DNA of 64,000 nucleotides from Chloroflexota bacterium (GTDB lineage: Bacteria; Chloroflexota; Anaerolineae; Anaerolineales; Villigracilaceae), in the NCBI GenBank assembly GCA_021414245.1, contig JAIOOU010000017.1:1-64000 (forward strand). Direction: 5' to 3'. Positions 19,093-28,460 of this stretch are shown one piece after another (position 1 is the stretch's first letter; each line of letters starts with the position of its first letter). The notes beneath the pieces were generated by a model. That model saw nothing but the letters and a program-made list of their open reading frames with translations. It was not told the origin of the DNA and did no database searches. The position numbers and the translations under genes were made by a program.

Positions 19093-19121
19093 ATTCTACG
19101 TGTAAGACCTGAAATGGACAA
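19093..19121 (-). promoter_or_regulatory. mutS promoter, leaderless type
   Basis: On the minus strand TTGTCC (19121-19116) and TAGAAT (19098-19093) are 17 nt apart. TAGAAT ends 6 nt before the ATG at 19086. The -35 box overlaps, on the opposite strand, the -35 of the divergent gene. Confidence 0.7.
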
Positions 19122-19143
19122 GGGATGCGATGTCAGATATAAT
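19115..19143 (+). promoter_or_regulatory. Promoter of the 19174 operon, sharing its -35 with mutS
   Basis: TGGACA (19115-19120) and TATAAT (19138-19143) are 17 nt apart. The heptamer TGGACAA serves as -35 on this strand and, as TTGTCC, on the other. A Shine-Dalgarno (AAAGGAG) precedes the first gene, so this transcript has a short leader. Confidence 0.7.
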
Positions 19144-19173
19144 CTTTATTTCAATATTAAAAGGAGTATATAA

Positions 19174-19335
19174 ATGTACATTGATCCGAATACTGGCGGA
19201 ATGTTGTTCCAAGTGCTTGCCGCGTTGTTTGTGGCAGGGTCCGGCGTTTTGCTCTTCTTTTCCCGTAACATTAGGGAGGGGATCGCAAAGCTGCGGCGCC
19301 GCATGCGAAAAGATGACGAAGACCAGGAAGAATAA
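19174..19335 (+). CDS. Small membrane protein with YIDPNTGG N-terminus
   Basis: A 53-residue reading frame with an AAAGGAG Shine-Dalgarno 8-9 nt before the ATG and a good promoter. It begins MYIDPNTGGMLFQ, then has one hydrophobic helix (about residues 11-30), a basic stretch (KLRRRMRK) and an acidic end (DDEDQEE). Small membrane proteins with a Y-I-D-P-x-T-G motif at the N-terminus occur in many bacteria, often next to alkaline-phosphatase-superfamily genes; this is from memory of the family. Here such a gene starts 9 bp downstream. I infer a helper or anchor role. Biochemical function is unknown. Confidence 0.8.
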   Translation: MYIDPNTGGMLFQVLAALFVAGSGVLLFFSRNIREGIAKLRRRMRKDDEDQEE

Positions 19336-19344
19336 TCCAGGATC

Positions 19345-21168
19345 ATGAAGACCATCATCCTTGGGTTTGATTCTTTTGATCCGGTCGTTTTTGAAGATAT
19401 GGCCGGGCAAAAGAAATTACCAAATCTTCAAAAATTGATGGAGACAGGCGGGTACTCCAGACTTGAAGTTTGTTCTCCTCCCCAAACTGAGGTTTCCTGG
19501 ACGAGCATCGCCACGGGCGCAGACCCGGGCGGGCACGGGATCTTTGATTTTGTGCATCGTGACCCCTCCACATACGCACCTTATGTATCTATCCTGCCGA
19601 CGAGGAAGTCTGCTATCGGCGAGCAATTTGTTCCGCCTTATATTGCCCGGACATTTTTTGAAGAAGCGGCGGCTATGGGGTTTCCCGCCACTGCCCTTTG
19701 GTGGCCGGCTATGTTTCCCGCCCGTCCTGAGCTCCCTGTTAATACTTTACCCGGATTGGGTACGCCGGATATACGCGGCCAGCTGGGCGTCGGCACATTA
19801 TTTACATCGGAAAATGAAAAGAAGGCTAAAACCTCAGTTGTTCAACTGGCTTCGCCGGGCAAGGGCGGATTTACGGGTGTGATCAATGGCCCTCAGACTC
19901 AGGGCAAGTCCGGCCCTCAATCGCTAACCCTCCCTGTCAATATTGATGTGCTTGACGCAAAATCTGCGAAACTCACCATTGGGGATAAACAAATTGAGTT
20001 GCGCCTGGGAATTTGGAGTGATGTTATTGAAATTAAATTCAAGGCTGGACTCTTATTCACTGTCCACGCAATTACCCGGGCAATTTTAACAAGCCTCGAC
20101 GGAGTCGTCAGGGTATACACACTGCCTCTGCAAATACACCCTTTGCATGCCCTGGTCCATTATGCGTCTTCGCAATCCTTTGCCAGAAATTTATGGCAAA
20201 AAGTCGGCCCATATCTGACCTTGGGATGGCCTCAGGATACCACGGGTTTGGAAGATGGCTGTATCTCGGATGAACAGTTTCTGGATTTGTGTAATTTGAT
20301 TTTCGAGCAACGAAAGCGGATATTTTTTTATTTGCTCGAGAATTTTAAAGAAGGCGTCCTTGCTGGAATATTCGATGATCTTGATCGGATCCAGCATATG
20401 TTCTATCATAACCGCCTTGATATTGTGCAGTCCTGGTATCAAAAACTTGATGCTTTTGTGGGGGAAGTCGGCGCAAAATTGGAGCGGCGCACCGGGAAAT
20501 ATAATTATCTGGTGATGTCAGACCATGGCTTTACCACCTACGAGCACAAAGTTCACCTGAATCGCTGGCTCACGGAAAACCATTATCTTGAATTATTGGA
20601 TGGCCGCTCCGATGGCGATTTGACCCAGGTCGATTGGGACCATACCAGGGCGTATGCGGTTGGGTTGAACAGTTTATATATAAATGTTCAGGGGCGTGAG
20701 GGTAGGGGAGTGGTGGCTGCTGGCGAGATAGAAGATCTTCTGTCTGAGATCAGCGGTAAGTTATCGGGTTGGATCGGCCCCGATGGACGGCGTGTGGTCA
20801 ATCATGTTCGATTTAAGCATGAAATTTACAACGGTGTCTACACACGGCTTGGCCCTGACTTGAATATTGGGTATTCTTCCGGATATCGCGCCTCCTCGGA
20901 GACCGGTCTTGGCAAAACCCCTCAGGCGTTGATCGAGAAAAATCTGGATCATTGGGGGGCGGATCATTGTGTGGATGCCGATGTGGTGCCTGGTGTTCTA
21001 TTTACGAATCGTGACCTCGGGAATTTTGGCGGGATATCCTTCCGGGATATTCCCTTCCTTGCAATTGGAAAGCACTTGGATCAGTCTCATATCAAACCGC
21101 CTTCACAATTGGGCGGATCTTCCCAGGGTGATTTGGAAGAAAGGTTGAAAGGACTTGGGTATCTTTAG
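19345..21168 (+). CDS. Alkaline-phosphatase-superfamily phosphodiesterase/nucleotide pyrophosphatase
   Basis: The 607-residue protein fits the type I phosphodiesterase group of the alkaline phosphatase superfamily. The N-terminus GFDSFDP carries the first metal Asp, and TEVSWTSIATG (about 47-57) holds the nucleophile region. DDLDRIQHMFYH (about 345-356), MSDHGFTTYEHKVHLN (about 391-406) and DHWGADHC near residue 535 supply the remaining Asp/His ligands. No signal peptide is seen, so it may act in the cytoplasm or at the membrane. It follows the small membrane protein by 9 bp and overlaps the next gene by 14 bp. It could transfer or hydrolyse phosphoesters on envelope glycans or lipids. Confidence 0.85.
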   Translation: MKTIILGFDSFDPVVFEDMAGQKKLPNLQKLMETGGYSRLEVCSPPQTEVSWTSIATGADPGGHGIFDFVHRDPSTYAPYVSILPTRKSAIGEQFVPPYIARTFFEEAAAMGFPATALWWPAMFPARPELPVNTLPGLGTPDIRGQLGVGTLFTSENEKKAKTSVVQLASPGKGGFTGVINGPQTQGKSGPQSLTLPVNIDVLDAKSAKLTIGDKQIELRLGIWSDVIEIKFKAGLLFTVHAITRAILTSLDGVVRVYTLPLQIHPLHALVHYASSQSFARNLWQKVGPYLTLGWPQDTTGLEDGCISDEQFLDLCNLIFEQRKRIFFYLLENFKEGVLAGIFDDLDRIQHMFYHNRLDIVQSWYQKLDAFVGEVGAKLERRTGKYNYLVMSDHGFTTYEHKVHLNRWLTENHYLELLDGRSDGDLTQVDWDHTRAYAVGLNSLYINVQGREGRGVVAAGEIEDLLSEISGKLSGWIGPDGRRVVNHVRFKHEIYNGVYTRLGPDLNIGYSSGYRASSETGLGKTPQALIEKNLDHWGADHCVDADVVPGVLFTNRDLGNFGGISFRDIPFLAIGKHLDQSHIKPPSQLGGSSQGDLEERLKGLGYL

Positions 21169-21691
21169 AAAAATCCCGCACTGGCCGGCTCTCGCTTCCG
21201 TTTATGCCGTTCTGGCGGTGTTTGTATATGGTTGGACGATCTACTGGTTCTTGTGGAAACTGCCAAGCTGGATCTACTATCTAACCATGCCGGAAATATT
21301 AACAATTGCCGCCTACTCGGCTGCCGTTAATTTCCTCGAAAGCCTGTTGTTACTCTCTCTGCCGCTTTTTCTGTCTGTTTTCCTTCCCAAAAGCTGGGTT
21401 TATGAGAACTTTATTTCAGTTGGCGGATTTTTAGGCATTATGGTTGGCGGATTTTTGCTTTATTTTTCGTCCATATCCGCTGCTGCTGATACTTTTTCTT
21501 ATTCCCTGATTTGGCCCGCCATCCTTTTCCTGGTGATTTCGATTTGCCTTGCCATTTTTCTGGGCCGGTTGCGCATGATTGCGCAGGTCGTGGAGACCAT
21601 CGCGGACAGACTTAAGGTGTTTCTGTATATTTTGATTCCTGTAAGCCTGCTTTCCATTTTGCTGGTCGCCATCCGTAATCTCATCAGGTAA
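21155..21691 (+). CDS. Four-helix membrane protein of unknown function
   Basis: I do not recognise this 178-residue protein. It starts at a TTG with AAAGGA just upstream and overlaps the end of the phosphodiesterase gene by 14 bp, so translation is probably coupled. Four hydrophobic segments lie at about residues 10-30, 45-75, 88-110 and 118-135, and a fifth near 150-170. The overlap links its job to the two neighbouring alkaline-phosphatase-superfamily enzymes, perhaps as a membrane partner. Confidence 0.75.
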   Translation: MGIFRKIPHWPALASVYAVLAVFVYGWTIYWFLWKLPSWIYYLTMPEILTIAAYSAAVNFLESLLLLSLPLFLSVFLPKSWVYENFISVGGFLGIMVGGFLLYFSSISAAADTFSYSLIWPAILFLVISICLAIFLGRLRMIAQVVETIADRLKVFLYILIPVSLLSILLVAIRNLIR

Positions 21692-21711
21692 AAGATCAGG
21701 ATTTTTTTTAA

Positions 21712-23229
21712 ATGAAAAAACTATCCCGCAGAGATTTTTTGAAGTCGGCTGCCATGACCTCACTTGCAGTTATGGCGCCCTCGTATGTTAAAACCCTGGC
21801 AGATGGCCTGGCTGGCAAAAGTGCATTGCCAAATATTATTGTGTTGATCTTTGACGCAATGAGCGCCCGGAACCTGTCTCTTTATGGGTATGCCCGAAGG
21901 ACTTCTCCAAATTTGGAAAGATTTGCAGAGCACGCCACTGTATTTCACAACCATGCGTCCGGCGGGAATTTTACGACGCCGGGAACTGCAACCATACTTA
22001 CCGGCACCTATCCATGGACCCATCGGGCCATCAATCAAGCCGGCCTCATCCTGCGCCGTCGGGCAGGTCGGAATCTCTTTTCCGCAATTGGAGACCGATA
22101 TACAAAGTTTGCCTTTACGCAGAACCTGTGGGCCGATTACCTCTTAAACCAATTTGAACACCAGATCGATCGACATTTGCTGCCAACGTCGTTTAGCGTT
22201 GCGGACAATTCCTGGGGTTCCGTGTTTGCAAATGATTTGAATTCCAGCAATCGCGCTTTGGATGATTTTTTGTTCCAGTCGGATGCCCGCCCGGCCTCTC
22301 TTGTCTTTGGCCCATTGGAAAAACAGTTGTTTTTGCATCAACTGGCAAGGTTAAGCGTGAAGGGGTATTCACGGGGCCTGCCTCACGATGTGACCAATCC
22401 AAAATATTTTCACCTCGAGGATGTTTTTAATGGGGTTAATTCACAATTAGGCACCCTGCCCACCCCGTTTTTTTCCTATATCCATTTATACGCACCGCAT
22501 GAACCTTATCGGCCTCGTGAAGAGTTTGAAAATATTTTCAAGGATGGCATGAAGCAAGTTGAAAAGCCGGAAAGCCCATTTGCCGATGGAAGCACTGTCC
22601 AGGCATTGTTAAATCGCAGGACCAATTATGATGAATATGTTGCCAATGTGGATTTCGAATTCGGGAAATTGATCGATTCGCTGGCCCAAAAAGGCATCCT
22701 GGATAATAGCGTTGTCGTGGTCACTTCCGACCATGGTCAGCTCTTTGAAAGAGGTGTGCATGGTCATACCACCCCCCTGTTGTTTGACCCGGTAATTCAT
22801 GTGCCGCTTCTTGTTTCCTTGCCCGGGCAAACTGCTCGCCGTGATGTGTTCACCCCAACTAGCAATGCCGATCTTCTCCCGACTCTGGCAAAAATCGCCG
22901 GGAATGAAATCCCGGACTGGACTGAAGGCAGGGTGCTCCCCACTCTTGGCGGAGAAGAGGACTTGGAACGGCCGATTTTTACCGTGGAAGCAAAATCCAA
23001 TCAGGCGTTTTCTCCATTGACCCATGCAACAGTTGCCATGCGAAAGGGAAACAATAAACTGATCTATTACTCGGGCTATACAAAAGAACCCTGGTTCGAA
23101 CTTTATGATGTCGGAGCGGATCCCGAGGAGTTGACCGACCTGATTCCGTCAGGACCTGTTTTTGCTCGGGTGATGAAGGAGGAATTGTTGACATCCCTGA
23201 ATGACGCAAACGTGTCTGTGGAGAATTAA
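21712..23229 (+). CDS. Tat-exported sulfatase-like (alkaline phosphatase superfamily) enzyme with Thr nucleophile
   Basis: A 505-residue protein with a twin-arginine signal (SRRDFLKS, residues 4-11, then a hydrophobic stretch), so it is exported folded. The sulfatase-type core has LIFDAMSARNLSLYGY, and VVTSDHGQLFERGVHGH (about 337-353) supplies Asp-His metal ligands. At the site where sulfatases carry Cys/Ser-x-Pro-x-Arg, it reads TTPGTAT. So there is no formylglycine precursor and no Arg; a Thr is the likely nucleophile, as in phosphoglycerol and phosphoethanolamine transferases. Function is therefore more likely phospho-transfer or phosphodiester cleavage than sulfate ester cleavage. It sits 20 bp after the membrane protein. 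Confidence 0.85.
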   Translation: MKKLSRRDFLKSAAMTSLAVMAPSYVKTLADGLAGKSALPNIIVLIFDAMSARNLSLYGYARRTSPNLERFAEHATVFHNHASGGNFTTPGTATILTGTYPWTHRAINQAGLILRRRAGRNLFSAIGDRYTKFAFTQNLWADYLLNQFEHQIDRHLLPTSFSVADNSWGSVFANDLNSSNRALDDFLFQSDARPASLVFGPLEKQLFLHQLARLSVKGYSRGLPHDVTNPKYFHLEDVFNGVNSQLGTLPTPFFSYIHLYAPHEPYRPREEFENIFKDGMKQVEKPESPFADGSTVQALLNRRTNYDEYVANVDFEFGKLIDSLAQKGILDNSVVVVTSDHGQLFERGVHGHTTPLLFDPVIHVPLLVSLPGQTARRDVFTPTSNADLLPTLAKIAGNEIPDWTEGRVLPTLGGEEDLERPIFTVEAKSNQAFSPLTHATVAMRKGNNKLIYYSGYTKEPWFELYDVGADPEELTDLIPSGPVFARVMKEELLTSLNDANVSVEN

Positions 23230-23233
23230 TAAA

Positions 23234-23845
23234 GTGGGAATATTCAAATCCGTCTTCACATCCAAAAATAAAAAACAAAGTAGTTCCATTGTTGTGGTTT
23301 CCGGGCTTCCGAGGTCCGGAACCTCCATGATGATGAAGATGTTGACAGAAGGTGGGTTGACTGCAGTTGTGGATTCTCAAAGGCAGGCGGACGAGGATAA
23401 TCCAAACGGCTATTTTGAAATTGAATCCAGCAAGGCGCTGAAAGACGGGGATATTCAATGGCTGTATGCCGCCCGGGGCAAGGCTGTCAAGGTCATTTCC
23501 TATCTTCTCGAATTTCTTCCGGACGACCTGAATTATGACATTATTTTCATGGAACGAGAGATCAGCGAGGTGCTTGCCTCGCAAAAAAAGATGCTCCAGC
23601 GCAGAAACGAAACCTCCTCCCTGACGGACGGGGAAATGGAAGTTCAATTTCGCGAGCATCTTCGTGCAGTAAAATATTGGACTGCCCGGAAGGCCAATAT
23701 GAGGATATTGTTTGTAAAATACAGTCGAATGGTCGAGGCCCCTGAAGAGCTTTGCAGGTCGATCGCCGAGTTTTTGAATGTTCCCCTTGATTTGAAAGCC
23801 ATGATGGCGGTGCCCAGCCAGTCCCTGTATCGAAATCGATCTTAA
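23234..23845 (+). CDS. Sulfotransferase-like protein
   Basis: About 203 residues. The N-terminal [14 protein letters not shown] (about 24-37) is the PAPS 5'-phosphosulfate-binding loop of sulfotransferases. The [17 protein letters not shown] segment matches the second PAPS-binding region around a Ser/Arg pair. The protein is shorter than many sulfotransferases. A GTG at 23234 is the likely start: it lies 4 nt after the preceding stop, with GGAG about 10 nt upstream. It would sulfate a small molecule, glycan or protein. Its link to the sulfatase-like neighbour suggests an envelope substrate, but that is inferred. Confidence 0.78.
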
Positions 23846-23858
23846 TCGGAGCAGCTTT

Positions 23859-24605
23859 ATGTATAAATTGGTTCTCGTCCGTCACGGACAAAGCACGTGG
23901 AATCTCGAAAATCGCTTTACCGGTTGGACGGATGTCGATCTGACCGAGCTTGGCCGGGAAGAAGCCAAAATGGCCGGCAGGTTGCTGCAGGAGGGCGGCT
24001 ATGATTTTGATATTGCCTACACATCCGTTCTCAAACGCGCGATCAAAACCCTCGGGATCGTTCAGGAGCAGATGGGGCTGGAATGGCTGCCGGTCATCCG
24101 GGCCTGGCAGTTGAATGAGCGACACTACGGGTCCCTGCAGGGATTAAACAAAACGGAAATGGCCGAAAAATTCGGGGAGGCCCAGGTAAAGATTTGGAGG
24201 CGTTCCTATGATGTCCCGCCTCCCGCCTTGGAGTTGACTGACGAGCGTCATCCGAAATATGATCGCCGATATGCAGCGTTGACTCCCGAACAGCTTCCGG
24301 CCACGGAGTCATTAAAGATCACCCTTGAGCGGGTCCTGCCGTACTGGCATTCCACACTCGCTCCGGATATTACATCAGGCAGACGGGTGCTGGTCGTTGC
24401 ACACGGGAATTCAATCCGCGCTTTGGTGAAATATATTGATAATATTTCTGAAGCCGACATCACTGAATTGAACATTCCCACCGGACTGCCTCTTGTGTAT
24501 GAACTGGATAAGGACTTGAAGCCGATCCGGAATTATTATTTGGGGGATGCCGAAGAAGCGGCCAGGAAGGCGGCGGCTGTGGCCAATCAGGGCAGGGCAA
24601 AGTAA
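23859..24605 (+). CDS. gpmA: 2,3-bisphosphoglycerate-dependent phosphoglycerate mutase
   Basis: A 248-residue cytoplasmic enzyme interconverting 3- and 2-phosphoglycerate in glycolysis and gluconeogenesis. It has the family signature [10 protein letters not shown] with the catalytic His near residue 9, then [26 protein letters not shown] and the second His in [14 protein letters not shown] near residue 182. Length matches the family. A GGAG Shine-Dalgarno lies 8 nt before the ATG, and a strong terminator ends the operon. It follows the sulfotransferase-like gene by 13 bp and is probably co-transcribed with it. Confidence 0.96.
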
Positions 24606-24620
24606 CAATTTTGTATGAAG

Positions 24621-24668
24621 AAGGCGCGGGACTCACAGGGATCGACCTTGTGCCTCCCGCGCCTTTTG
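24621..24668 (+). terminator. Rho-independent terminator after gpmA
   Basis: AAGGCGCGGGA (24621-24631) pairs with TCCCGCGCCTT (24655-24665), with a further inner pairing of CACAGGG and CCTTGTG. TTTT follows. Confidence 0.9.
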
Positions 24669-24682
24669 GATTGCGAACGGAG

Positions 24683-24688
24683 TAGAAT
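24683..24688 (+). promoter_or_regulatory. TAGAAT -10 box, 6 nt before the dehydrogenase ATG
   Basis: TAGAAT ends 6 nt before the ATG at 24695, predicting a leaderless mRNA. GGAG at 24679-24682 overlaps its start and lies 12 nt from the ATG, so a Shine-Dalgarno role cannot be excluded. Confidence 0.45.
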
Positions 24689-24694
24689 TCATTG

Positions 24695-27613
24695 ATGCTG
24701 CCTGATTTCATTAACGAATTAAAAAAACGGTTCAATGGCGACCTGCGGCTTGATCCTGCTTCGAAGGTCCTTTATTCCACCGATGCGTCCATATATCAGA
24801 TCGAACCTTTGGGGGTGGCAATCCCCAGGTCTCAGGATGATTTGCTGGCTGCGGTTGAGCTGGCTGTGCGATTCTCGATTCCAATTCTGCCGCGGGGCGC
24901 GGGATCTTCTTTGGGGGGACAGTCGATTGGCGAGGCTTTAATCCTGGATTGTTCACGCTATTTGGATGCCCTTGTGAAGATCGACCCGGAGTCTCAGACT
25001 GCGGTTGTTGAGCCGGGTGTCGTTCTTGCGGATCTGAATCGGGCGGCTGCAAAGCACGGCTTGATGTTCGGCCCCGACCCTGCTTCTGCAGAACGCGCGA
25101 CCATGGGTGGAGTCATTGGAAATAATGCAACGGGTGCCCACTCGATTTTGTATGGTATGAGCGCGGACCATCTCTTGGCCGCCGACGTGATCCTTGGCGA
25201 TGGCTCGCTTGAAACCTGGGATGACGGCGGCAAATCAAAACTTGCCCTCACAGCCCGGGAGATCCGGGAAAAATACGCGGACTCCATAAAACAAAATTTT
25301 CCGAGGTCGTGGAGGAATTCTGCCGGTTATCGGATTAATTATTTATTACCCTGGAGTCCTTCCGTTCCGCCCCAGTGGGACCGCGAAGATTATGGTCTGT
25401 CCGCTTCTGTTTACCGAAATTCGTCCAAGGTAAACCTTGCCGGTCTTTTGGCTGGCAGTGAAGGTACCCTGGCGGTGATGCGTCGCGCAACTGTAAATCT
25501 CGTTCGCAGGCCGAAATATACAATTCTGGGGATTCTTGCATATGAGAGCATAGTGAATGCCTGTCGTGATGTGCCCCGCCTGCTTGAATTCAAGCCCAGT
25601 GCGATTGAGTTGATCCCGCGCATGCTCATCCGATATGCGCGCAGCCTGCCCGGCTTCGGAAATCAGATGGGGTGGCTGGCAGGAGACCCTGCTGCAGTGC
25701 TGGTTGTGGAATTCAGCGGGGATCAGCCGTCGGCTTTGAAGGATGCGGTTCGCCGTCTTGGAAATGTTCTTGCGGTTGCAGAATCCCTTGAAGAGCAGGC
25801 CCGGGTCTGGAATGTCCGCAAGATGGGTCTGGGAATTTTGGATTCCCGGCGAGAGGCTGCGCGTCCAGTGGCATTTATTGAGGATTGTGCAGTTCCCGTG
25901 GAACACCTGGGCGAATTCGTTGAGGAAGTCGAACGGATCATGCACAGTCATCAAACGGATGGCGGGATTTACGCACATGCCTCCGGTGGGTGTCTGCATA
26001 TCCGCCCTATTTTGGATTTGCACAAGGCGGATGGTGTGCGCTCCATGAGGAGCATTGCAGAACAGGTCCTGAAGCTGGTATTGCAATTGGGCGGTTCGAT
26101 GTCATCCGAACATGGAGACGGAATCATCTCAGGCGAGTGGATCAGGAAAACATATGGCGCGGAGGTTGTGGAAGCCATGCGCATGATCAAAAAGGCTGCC
26201 GACCCTGGAAATTTATTAAACCCGGGGAAAATGCTGGATGCCCCGCCGATGGATACGCATCTTCGCTATGGCGGGAAATATCAGAACAGGGTTTGGAGGT
26301 CAACTTTACAATTCGAGCATGAACGCGGTTTGACCGGGGCGATCGAACATTGCAATGGCCAGGGAGTTTGCCGGAAATCAGGCGGCGTAATGTGCCCCTC
26401 TTTCCAAGCCACGAGAGAGGAGCAATTCAGCACCCGGGGCAGGGCAAATTTACTTCGGGCATTGACCTCATCCGGAGGGGTGAATTCTTTGCAAAGATAT
26501 TCAGAACTTGAACCTGAAGTATTCAAGGCCCTGGACTTGTGTCTGGCCTGCAAGGGCTGCACATCTGAATGCCCCAGCGGCGTGGACATGCCTAGGTTGA
26601 AATACGAATTCATGCATGAATATTTCAAAACTCATAATCGCCCGTTGCATGATTATCTGTTTGGTTATTTTCATGTGGTATCGCGCTGGCTGTCGCCTGT
26701 TGCGCCGCTCGCCAATTTATTAATGGGCACTGCCTGGTTGCGGGAATTGATGGGGAAACTCACCGGTATTACGGAAAAGCGGCCTCTTCCGGTGTTTGCG
26801 TTGAGCAAGTCGCATGTCAGACAGGTTATGCCGCCCGCGAATAAGGTGATCTTTCTTTCGGATGTCTTTTCCCGATATCTCGAGCCTCAGGTGGAACAGG
26901 CTGCGTTTGATATTCTGAGCGCAGCGGGTTATGAAGTATTGGTGCTGCCTGTGATTGGAGCGGGCGCCTCTTTTCTTTCCAAGGGGTTTTTGGAGGCGGC
27001 GCGCCGGCATGCCGAACAGGTTTTGAAAGCAATCAAAAAGTTGGACAATGGGGAGGGCTTAAGTGTTGTCGGGTGTGAGCCGCCGGAAATATACTGCCTT
27101 AAACATGAATATATCGGTTTGCTGCCGGAATTTCGATCTGAGATCGAATCCCTTGCCGGCCGGGTATGGCTGGTGGAGGAGTTTCTGCTTCGTTCAGCAA
27201 GATGGAGTGATTTGCGCGTAGCCACTAAGAGGGCGTTTGCGGAGCGGTCTGTAGATCAAGATGTCGTAACTTTTCATCCTCATTGCCATCAGCGGGCGGA
27301 GGGATTGGCTGAGGATGGCCTGCCAACAGGAACGGATGCAACTGCAACCTTGTTAAGGGACTTTGGCTTTCAAGTCAATGTGATGGAAGCTGGGTGTTGT
27401 GGAATGGCGGGTACGTTTGGATATGATATGGAGCATTATGAACTTTCCATGCAGATAGGGGAGTTGGGAGTTCTGCCAAGGGCGCGCGCAGCTAAGAAAG
27501 TCGTTTCGACCGGATCTGCTTGCAGGATGCAGATCAGACATGGCGCCGGCAGGGATGCGGAGCATCCTCTTTTGTTGGTCTCCAGACTCTTAACCTCAAG
27601 GGAAAATGAATGA
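24695..27613 (+). CDS. FAD-linked oxidase fused to Fe-S reductase (YdiJ / D-2-hydroxyacid dehydrogenase type)
   Basis: The 972-residue protein joins two halves. Residues about 20-530 form an FAD-binding PCMH-type oxidase (RGAGSSLGGQSIGEALILD, MGGVIGNNATGAHSILYG, SSEHGDGIISGEW). Residues about 545-960 form an Fe-S domain with CLACKGCTSECPSGVD (about 615-630) and a GlcF-like C-terminus with HPHCHQRA and AGCCGMAGTFGY (about 898-910). Length and order match the YdiJ family, which oxidises D-2-hydroxyacids such as D-2-hydroxyglutarate or D-lactate and passes electrons on. The ATG at 24695 is chosen over the adjacent TTG at 24692. Its end overlaps the next gene by 8 bp. Confidence 0.92.
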   Translation: MLPDFINELKKRFNGDLRLDPASKVLYSTDASIYQIEPLGVAIPRSQDDLLAAVELAVRFSIPILPRGAGSSLGGQSIGEALILDCSRYLDALVKIDPESQTAVVEPGVVLADLNRAAAKHGLMFGPDPASAERATMGGVIGNNATGAHSILYGMSADHLLAADVILGDGSLETWDDGGKSKLALTAREIREKYADSIKQNFPRSWRNSAGYRINYLLPWSPSVPPQWDREDYGLSASVYRNSSKVNLAGLLAGSEGTLAVMRRATVNLVRRPKYTILGILAYESIVNACRDVPRLLEFKPSAIELIPRMLIRYARSLPGFGNQMGWLAGDPAAVLVVEFSGDQPSALKDAVRRLGNVLAVAESLEEQARVWNVRKMGLGILDSRREAARPVAFIEDCAVPVEHLGEFVEEVERIMHSHQTDGGIYAHASGGCLHIRPILDLHKADGVRSMRSIAEQVLKLVLQLGGSMSSEHGDGIISGEWIRKTYGAEVVEAMRMIKKAADPGNLLNPGKMLDAPPMDTHLRYGGKYQNRVWRSTLQFEHERGLTGAIEHCNGQGVCRKSGGVMCPSFQATREEQFSTRGRANLLRALTSSGGVNSLQRYSELEPEVFKALDLCLACKGCTSECPSGVDMPRLKYEFMHEYFKTHNRPLHDYLFGYFHVVSRWLSPVAPLANLLMGTAWLRELMGKLTGITEKRPLPVFALSKSHVRQVMPPANKVIFLSDVFSRYLEPQVEQAAFDILSAAGYEVLVLPVIGAGASFLSKGFLEAARRHAEQVLKAIKKLDNGEGLSVVGCEPPEIYCLKHEYIGLLPEFRSEIESLAGRVWLVEEFLLRSARWSDLRVATKRAFAERSVDQDVVTFHPHCHQRAEGLAEDGLPTGTDATATLLRDFGFQVNVMEAGCCGMAGTFGYDMEHYELSMQIGELGVLPRARAAKKVVSTGSACRMQIRHGAGRDAEHPLLLVSRLLTSRENE

Positions 27614-28460
27614 GAAGGATTTTTTTTTATTTTCGGTAATTCTGGCAGCATGTTCTTCTGGAGGGATTCAGCCGCCAATGACTTTAATCCCTGCAGGAGG
27701 GGATCTTCCAGCCAACGCGAATCCGACATGGCCGGTTGAGAATCCTGCTCACGTGCCGGCGCTTCCGTCGGGACCTGTGACTCTGGTCGCGCTCGGCGAT
27801 AGCCTGACACAAGGCGACGGAGATGATACGGGCCGCGGTTACGTGGGCCGATTGGTGGATTTGGTTAACATGCTTCGACCGGGATCCTCGGCGGTCAACC
27901 TGGGTCAATCAGGATGGAATTCGGATGCATTGATCAATGGCGATCAAGGACTCCCCGGGCAGTTGGGCCGTGCAGTGAAAGAACTTCAATCTGCGAGGCA
28001 ACAGGAAAGAGCTTCCATTGCCCTGGTCTGGATCGGAAGCAATGACCTCTGGTATCTATATGAATACGGGGGTGACGGATCGGACGCAGGGGACGCAAAG
28101 GATGTGGAGCATTTTGCCGCCAACCTGGATGTCATCCTGTCTGCATTGCGGGCCACGGAAAGCCCGGTTGTCATTGCCCTGCTGGACGATCAATCCAAAC
28201 GACCGGTCGCCTTAAAAGGCAGGGCGTTTACTTCCATAAACTCTGCGGAATTAAAGCGGATGTCGGAGCAGGTTCTTAAGTACAACAATATTATTTCTGA
28301 AAAGGCTTTGCATTACGGTGTGTTGACCGTGGATTTGTATCATACCAATATATTTACCAGCGCGGCAACCCTGTATGATGATGGGAATCATCCCAACGCG
28401 GCGGGATACGACATCATTGCCGGCAAATGGTTCGATGTTTTGTCAGCTCTGTTCCACTAA
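27606..28460 (+). CDS. SGNH/GDSL-hydrolase lipoprotein
   Basis: A 284-residue secreted lipoprotein. The short signal ends in a lipobox (VILAAC, Cys at about 16), followed by a Pro-rich linker. The SGNH hydrolase core has block I ALGDSLTQG with the nucleophile Ser (about residue 63), block III WIGSNDLWYLY with Asn (about 141), and block V DGNHPNAAG with Asp and His (about 258-262). It would cleave ester bonds of an external lipid or carbohydrate. It overlaps the upstream dehydrogenase stop by 8 bp and the convergent methyltransferase gene by 18 bp. Confidence 0.93.
   Translation: MNEKDFFLFSVILAACSSGGIQPPMTLIPAGGDLPANANPTWPVENPAHVPALPSGPVTLVALGDSLTQGDGDDTGRGYVGRLVDLVNMLRPGSSAVNLGQSGWNSDALINGDQGLPGQLGRAVKELQSARQQERASIALVWIGSNDLWYLYEYGGDGSDAGDAKDVEHFAANLDVILSALRATESPVVIALLDDQSKRPVALKGRAFTSINSAELKRMSEQVLKYNNIISEKALHYGVLTVDLYHTNIFTSAATLYDDGNHPNAAGYDIIAGKWFDVLSALFH

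Follow-up and report, generated by a model that had tools for sequence, protein, structure and literature searches.

The 64,000-nucleotide stretch analysed here (the window; positions 1 to 64,000 of contig JAIOOU010000017.1, Chloroflexota bacterium assembly GCA_021414245.1) carries between positions 19174 and 23845 of its plus strand five tightly packed genes, here called A to E, that form a real conserved module. Gene A (19174-19335) encodes 53 residues, its open reading frame (ORF) translation starting MYIDPNTGG, and is followed by gene B (19345-21168; 607 residues), gene C (21155-21691; 178 residues, TTG start), gene D (21712-23229; 505 residues), and gene E (23234-23845; 203 residues, GTG start; an alternative longer frame has an ATG start at 23201). 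The spacing given in the original prediction, a 9-bp gap, a 14-bp overlap (21155-21168), and gaps of 20 and 4 bp, is borne out by the ORFs and the sequence. The host genome comprises 3.87 Mb in 17 contigs, and its relatives are, by their record titles, Chloroflexota of the class Anaerolineae.

Related loci were collected by scanning genome contigs with a profile of B (19 sequences), which gave 232 stretches and 210 relatives. The best 80 of these 210 were kept and two distant outliers (L149 and L150) removed, leaving 78 loci chosen by B alone, of which 77 are labelled Chloroflexota and one (L101) Desulfobacterales; every reading frame of the 78 was then searched with hidden Markov models of A, C, D, and E. 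Contig ends cut many loci, so counts were restricted to those with enough flank, which for C, D, and E were the 36 in which B has 5 kb of flank on each side. A occurs in 77 of 77 loci with enough flank (the lone miss, L071, has 117 bp before B) and lies between B and C in L119 and L126. C and D are both found near B in 30 of the 36 loci, E in 25, and all of them together in 20. E is the loosest member of the module; in its 25 loci it runs along B in 16 and against it in 9. The exact 14-bp overlap recurs at 34 of 50 downstream B-C junctions. Chance neighbours are ruled out by these linkage counts (A with B, and C and D with B), and the outcome that the original prediction had offered as its own refutation, neighbours not conserved together, did not occur across the 78 loci.

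Within the module, C and D are a pair: D stands directly 3′ of C for 60 of the 63 C genes in the 78 loci, the others being L075 and L095 (both at contig ends) and L091 (not at a contig end). The membrane protein that had been listed as one of the set is, in this pairing with D, not a generic one. A profile of C found 17 copies in 6 of 251 genomes of the phylum. Among the further C copies read in context (the window's own excluded), D lies directly downstream in 15 of 16, and in L168 E follows C. The distances of C and D correlate at 0.87 (70 pairs, with no B control; 0 of 999 permutations as high), a value that linkage alone would also raise; a paralog subset comprised 14 pairs, L178 being left out there only. 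Beside C, D often occurs in duplicate (L099, L100, L106, L110, L171, and L174), and relatives of D occur on 213 plasmid records, none with at least 60% identity and 11 with at least 80% coverage. No description of this gene set was found in the open-licence library searched, which is no proof of its absence from print; the original prediction likewise knew of no described system with exactly these genes.

Some loci show unusual arrangements. Three D copies surround a single C gene in L099 (6482-11144), L174 (2378-7697), and L171 (2891-9921). The locus labelled Desulfobacterales, L101, holds A-B-C-D plus the beginning of a SAT-like gene, by transfer or mis-binning. A remnant operon in genome G020 (L056:92-1698) has the last 130 residues of B beside a 264-residue part of D, as if the intervening stretch had been deleted.

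A is predicted to be a single-pass membrane protein with its YIDPNTGG motif outside and a basic tail inside. Residues Y2, D4, P5, G8, and G9 are present in 78 of 78 sequences (window included), so that the motif Y-x-D-P-x-x-G-G is invariant. The orientation follows from a signal-peptide-like stretch, which ends just before the motif in 10 of 77 relatives, and from the tail after the helix, with a net charge of +3 to +8 in all 77; transmembrane segments and signal peptides were called throughout with simple hydropathy scripts. No Pfam family scored A above its cut-off, and beyond the phylum nothing convincing was seen in the two genomes behind L149 and L150, the only two searched (best E 0.68). 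Outside the module, weak profile matches in G043 and in four further families from the phylum sample lead to a small YxDPGSGS protein next to a protein that starts with an FRDPSG stretch. In L202 and L208 a YxDPGSGS protein stands beside a fused protein with five or six membrane segments and a Thr-type alkaline phosphatase (AlkP) domain, in L208 next to a Wzt-type exporter, a second link between the A family and membrane enzymes of the Thr-AlkP type. At L202 (7492-10965), L208 (4623-8471), and L203 (6670-9355), the FRDPSG protein adjoining the YxDPGSGS protein is large, with a kinase-like stretch and a methyltransferase-like end, and is reminiscent of WbdD.

B matches the Phosphodiest family (PF01663, 114.7 bits), and its modelled fold is that of the NPP enzymes, with Z 25.8 to Xac NPP (2gsn_A; root-mean-square deviation [rmsd] 4.2, 338 residues aligned) and Z 25.7 to phosphonoacetate hydrolase. 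The putative catalytic set D9, T/S48, D347, H351, D393, and H394 is present in 79 of 79 rows and H541 in 77 (with 2 gaps); these seven metal and nucleophile positions were assigned from NPP motifs. B begins MKTIILGFD, directly in the first strand of the fold and with no hydrophobic leader, which points to a cytosolic NPP-type enzyme of the AlkP superfamily; the export typical of the NPP/ENPP ecto-enzymes is not seen in B, which has no signal. We take COG3379 to be the name of its family; the literature listing under that name is unrelated. At L149 (13213-17040), whose genome is Acidobacteria-like or otherwise outside the Anaerolineae, an APS kinase gene adjoins a B-type AlkP gene, with tandem B-type genes near. 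Another locus, from a same-genus genome that has no close B ortholog (L064:2232-15813), holds B and E homologs in a polysaccharide-type cluster with flippase-, FemAB-, and aminotransferase-like genes named by eye.

D matches the Sulfatase family (PF00884, 133.9 bits; cut-off 25). Its start scores slightly below the cut-off for a twin-arginine translocation (Tat) signal (21.8 vs 22.7), residues 6-7 are RR in 67 of 68 rows, and TatC is encoded in the host genome. Aligned with a solved choline sulfatase and a phosphonate monoester hydrolase (PMH), T88 (codon 21973-21975, plus strand) occupies the position of the Cys of CxPxR, the formylglycine site of sulfatases, and T92 that of the Arg. Across 68 sequences (window included), T88 is conserved in 67, D48 in 68, D340 in 67, and H341 in 67; the lone Cys row at position 88 is a separate reverse-strand sulfatase in L147. 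The Cys-type sulfatase of the host genome (L060) reads CCPSR and SDNG, whereas D has SDHG. D as a formylglycine (S1) sulfatase is ruled out by Thr88 and T92, although the fold itself is present. When profiles of D and of the YejM periplasmic domain from Escherichia coli are compared, T88 falls on T302 (hhalign E 3.6e-10); Thr302 is reported to be the nucleophile of YejM, whose phosphatase activity needs both the five-helix (5TM) domain and the Thr site (PMC7576196). Scores of D against the NCBIfam models for EptA, MCR, and LtaS are far below their cut-offs. We predict D to be a Tat-exported enzyme of the AlkP/sulfatase fold with a Thr nucleophile. The two AlkP-type enzymes of the original prediction, one with no signal and one Tat-exported with Thr in place of the sulfatase Cys, are recognizable in B and D; the refinement added here is that, with B lacking a signal and its partner A spanning the membrane, the two are placed on opposite sides of the membrane.

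C is, in its structural model (built from 58 sequences), a separate membrane protein of five long helices (mean pLDDT 95.7) that travels with D. Membrane domains of the EptA/LtaS type had been named as the comparison for C before the model was made. In a VIA-align comparison covering 253 chains, the top match was the YejM membrane domain (7t6d_D; rmsd 6.1, 159 of 178 residues aligned, whole length) at Z 8.3, which is within the chance range of helical bundles, where the background can reach 13, so the match is a pointer and not a proof. The next row was a receptor (Z 7.0), and MCR-1 was also listed (9nww_B; Z 4.4, rmsd 7.1, 107 aligned). No Pfam family scored C above its cut-off, and a profile search of the PDB with the C sequence gave nothing significant (best E 0.16). 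Sequence homology of C to known membrane domains is unsupported by that search and by hhalign. No fused C-D protein was found among the C matches in the 251 genomes, whose open frames have 180-292 residues.

E matches Sulfotransfer_3 (PF13469, 47.5 bits; cut-off 27), and its best PDB relatives include SULT1B1. An LPRSGTS loop, R108, and S116 are invariant in 16 sequences; these correspond to the 5′ loop and the R and S eight apart of the motifs for 3′-phosphoadenosine-5′-phosphosulfate (PAPS), a compound located in the cytosol. E is predicted to be a cytosolic PAPS-type sulfotransferase. A lack of PAPS as an argument against E is ruled out by the presence of the PAPS genes in the host genome, where a SAT/APS kinase fusion is the only full APS kinase match. 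SAT/APS kinase matches occur also in 56 of 61 relatives, some of them weak and partial, so they are not specific to the module.

A promoter-like pattern, TGGACA-17-TATAAT (19115-19143, plus strand), precedes A with 11 of 12 consensus matches, as a pattern match only, and AAAGGAG (19160-19166, plus strand), 7 bases before the ATG of A, is a putative ribosome-binding site. A 201-bp scan that includes the site before A contains 2 promoter-like sites (0.3 expected). Of the single promoter that had been proposed for the five genes, the strong sigma-70-like pattern before A stands; similar patterns occur also inside the gene region (11 vs 7.1 expected over 19100-24720), so one promoter is no more than plausible. 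Upstream, mutS is divergent from the module. Downstream, gpmA, absent from the first description of the locus, starts 13 bp after the end of E, and the stretch 23859-28460 holds, after gpmA, two genes named by eye, the first FAD-linked oxidase/Fe-S-like and the second SGNH-hydrolase-like.

Elsewhere, copies do not stand alone as the window copy does. On contig C14 of the host genome (L061:2780-11826), a second C-D pair has as its neighbours a SAT/APS kinase gene, a CMP-sugar synthetase-like gene, two sulfotransferase-like genes, and genes for membrane proteins; in L172, C-D stands with SAT/APS kinase, CTP_transf_3, and a sulfotransferase-like gene; and L109 has the order A-B-C-D, SAT/APS kinase, SDR, CTP_transf_3, NeuB. 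ABC-2 permease-like genes follow the operon in L104, L124, L128, and L130, and Wzt-like ATPase genes in L122, L124, L128, and L130 (one permease and one ATPase were confirmed by Pfam). Some copies beside genes for PAPS synthesis, NeuB/CMP-sugar, sulfotransferases, and polysaccharide ABC exporters make surface-glycan modification the likely role of the module. The envelope-modification system originally proposed is in this way partly supported, by genes conserved together and by some copies in polysaccharide, nonulosonate, and sulfate-activation clusters.

The reading that we tentatively favour, at somewhat less than an even chance, is an envelope-glycan module in which E sulfates, A-B is a phosphodiesterase, and C+D is a two-piece phospho-transfer enzyme outside the membrane. 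E would use cytosolic PAPS to sulfate a glycan precursor, an activity suggested by its fold and motifs. B, of the phosphodiesterase/pyrophosphatase type, may have its substrate, a phosphodiester or a pyrophosphate, in that pathway too; A would anchor B to the membrane, with the basic tail of A turned towards B. C and D would form a complex outside the cytoplasmic membrane, a two-piece, Tat-exported counterpart of the EptA/LtaS/YejM-type enzymes. In this complex the donor or acceptor, linked to a lipid, would be held by C, and the phospho-group would be carried by Thr88 of D together with a bound metal, most likely for transfer to an exported surface glycan and less likely for removal. We regard as doubtful a fuller scheme in which cytosolic B and exported D, AlkP-fold enzymes on either side of the membrane, are joined via A and C; a glycan would be processed inside and would afterwards receive a phospho- or sulfo-group outside, from a transferase split between a membrane piece and a Tat-exported catalytic one.

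Several observations weigh against the phospho-transfer module. Apart from the chance-range Z of C, Foldseek gave no significant match for C (best E 1.2), and hhalign linked C by sequence neither to the membrane domain of YejM (probability 0.3) nor to the membrane portion of the fused Thr-AlkP proteins in L202, L208, and L209 (probability 0.1). The best 60 of 104 PDB relatives of D, those inspected, are sulfatases and PMHs, with none named EptA, LtaS, or YejM, so that D seems to derive from the sulfatase side. The module is patchy: B was matched in 23 of 61 relatives at 1e-10 (some partial or paralogous), C occurs in just 6 of the 251 genomes, and of the 36 loci 6 lack C and D near B and 11 lack E there. 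Exporter genes are seen in 5 and SAT/APS kinase in 4 of the 78 loci (flanks of varying length), and the window copy itself stands among the housekeeping genes mutS and gpmA.

The main rival, which we consider unlikely, is that C+D transfers or edits sulfo-groups outside the cytoplasm, acting with E on the same glycan. In its favour, the closest solved sequence relatives of D (among the best 60) are sulfatases and PMHs; in L061 and L172 the neighbours of C-D include SAT/APS kinase and sulfotransferase-like genes, and in L109 A-B-C-D stands with SAT/APS kinase. PAPS, however, is cytosolic and D exported. The idea is the main rival because AlkP-fold sulfotransferases exist: the sulfatase-like AlkP-superfamily proteins VNG1056C/Agl30 and VNG1057C/Agl31 of Halobacterium salinarum are reported to sulfate N-glycan sugars, on the evidence of deletion and heterologous expression (PMC11980604). 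The solved Thr-nucleophile AlkP enzymes (EptA, LtaS, MCR-1, and YejM), in contrast, are reported to carry phospho-groups (PMC7576196).

Likewise improbable is a simpler role for D, as a plain phosphatase or phosphodiesterase outside the cytoplasm, trimming phospho-groups or scavenging phosphate while C anchors it. The AlkP fold is mostly hydrolytic, relatives of D are annotated as hydrolases, and YejM itself is reported to have phosphatase activity (PMC7576196); yet the tight pairing with a five-helix C and with A-B, and the copies in glycan clusters, are unusual for a scavenging enzyme. The weakest alternative, and a quite improbable one, takes A-B as the functional core (in turnover of 3′-phosphoadenosine 5′-phosphate, nucleotide-sugar, or lipid-phosphate in a sulfation pathway) with C, D, and E as separate passengers that were often acquired next to it: no pair is more constant than A-B, an APS kinase gene neighbours B paralogs in L149, C-D pairs occur also away from A-B, and E can be missing near B, but the frequency of C-D near B and the recurrent 14-bp overlap argue for joint expression.

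Anaerolineae are abundant in sludge, sediment, and groundwater, and the phospho-transfer reading, if true, would open a way to a surface glycan of this class that is sulfated or phosphorylated. It would mean that the EptA/LtaS/YejM architecture can be divided between two genes, the catalytic part being exported folded through Tat. The module is also a warning that, as to mechanism, "sulfatase" is an incorrect annotation for the D-type genes of these genomes. It would also point to a function for two orphan families, the cytosolic B-type phosphodiesterases and the small YIDP membrane proteins, the latter found in this analysis alongside B-C-D as well as next to a fused membrane-AlkP enzyme.

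Compared with known systems, B shares its fold and catalytic residues with the NPPs (Xanthomonas NPP and the ENPPs) and phosphonoacetate hydrolase; unlike the NPPs and ENPPs, it has no signal, is larger (607 residues) with inserted strands, and is tied to A. D shares its fold and best sequence matches with the S1 formylglycine sulfatases and PMHs, from which it differs by Thr for the modified Cys, Thr for the motif Arg, and SDHG in place of SDNG. Agl30 and Agl31 resemble the module as AlkP-fold proteins in a glycan cluster that add and do not remove a group; they belong to archaeal N-glycosylation, and the passages of their description that were consulted name no A, B, or C partner (PMC11980604).

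The likeness is greatest to the enzymes with a membrane part and an exported AlkP domain. YejM (PbgA/LapC) of E. coli and Salmonella has a five-helix membrane part and an exported AlkP/sulfatase domain in which T302 aligns with T88 of D; it is one polypeptide, whereas here there are two genes (C and D) and a Tat start on D. C has no sequence similarity to the YejM membrane part, and a LapB/lipopolysaccharide context was not seen, though none was searched for. The EptA/MCR phosphoethanolamine transferases and LtaS share the Thr nucleophile and the architecture of five helices and exported AlkP domain, but in the module C and D are split, and the sequence of D is nearer to choline sulfatase and PMH. 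C+D lacks one defining feature of EptA, LtaS, and YejM, a membrane part in the same polypeptide. D is not a formylglycine sulfatase, and C+D would work like EptA, LtaS, and YejM with its two parts encoded side by side.

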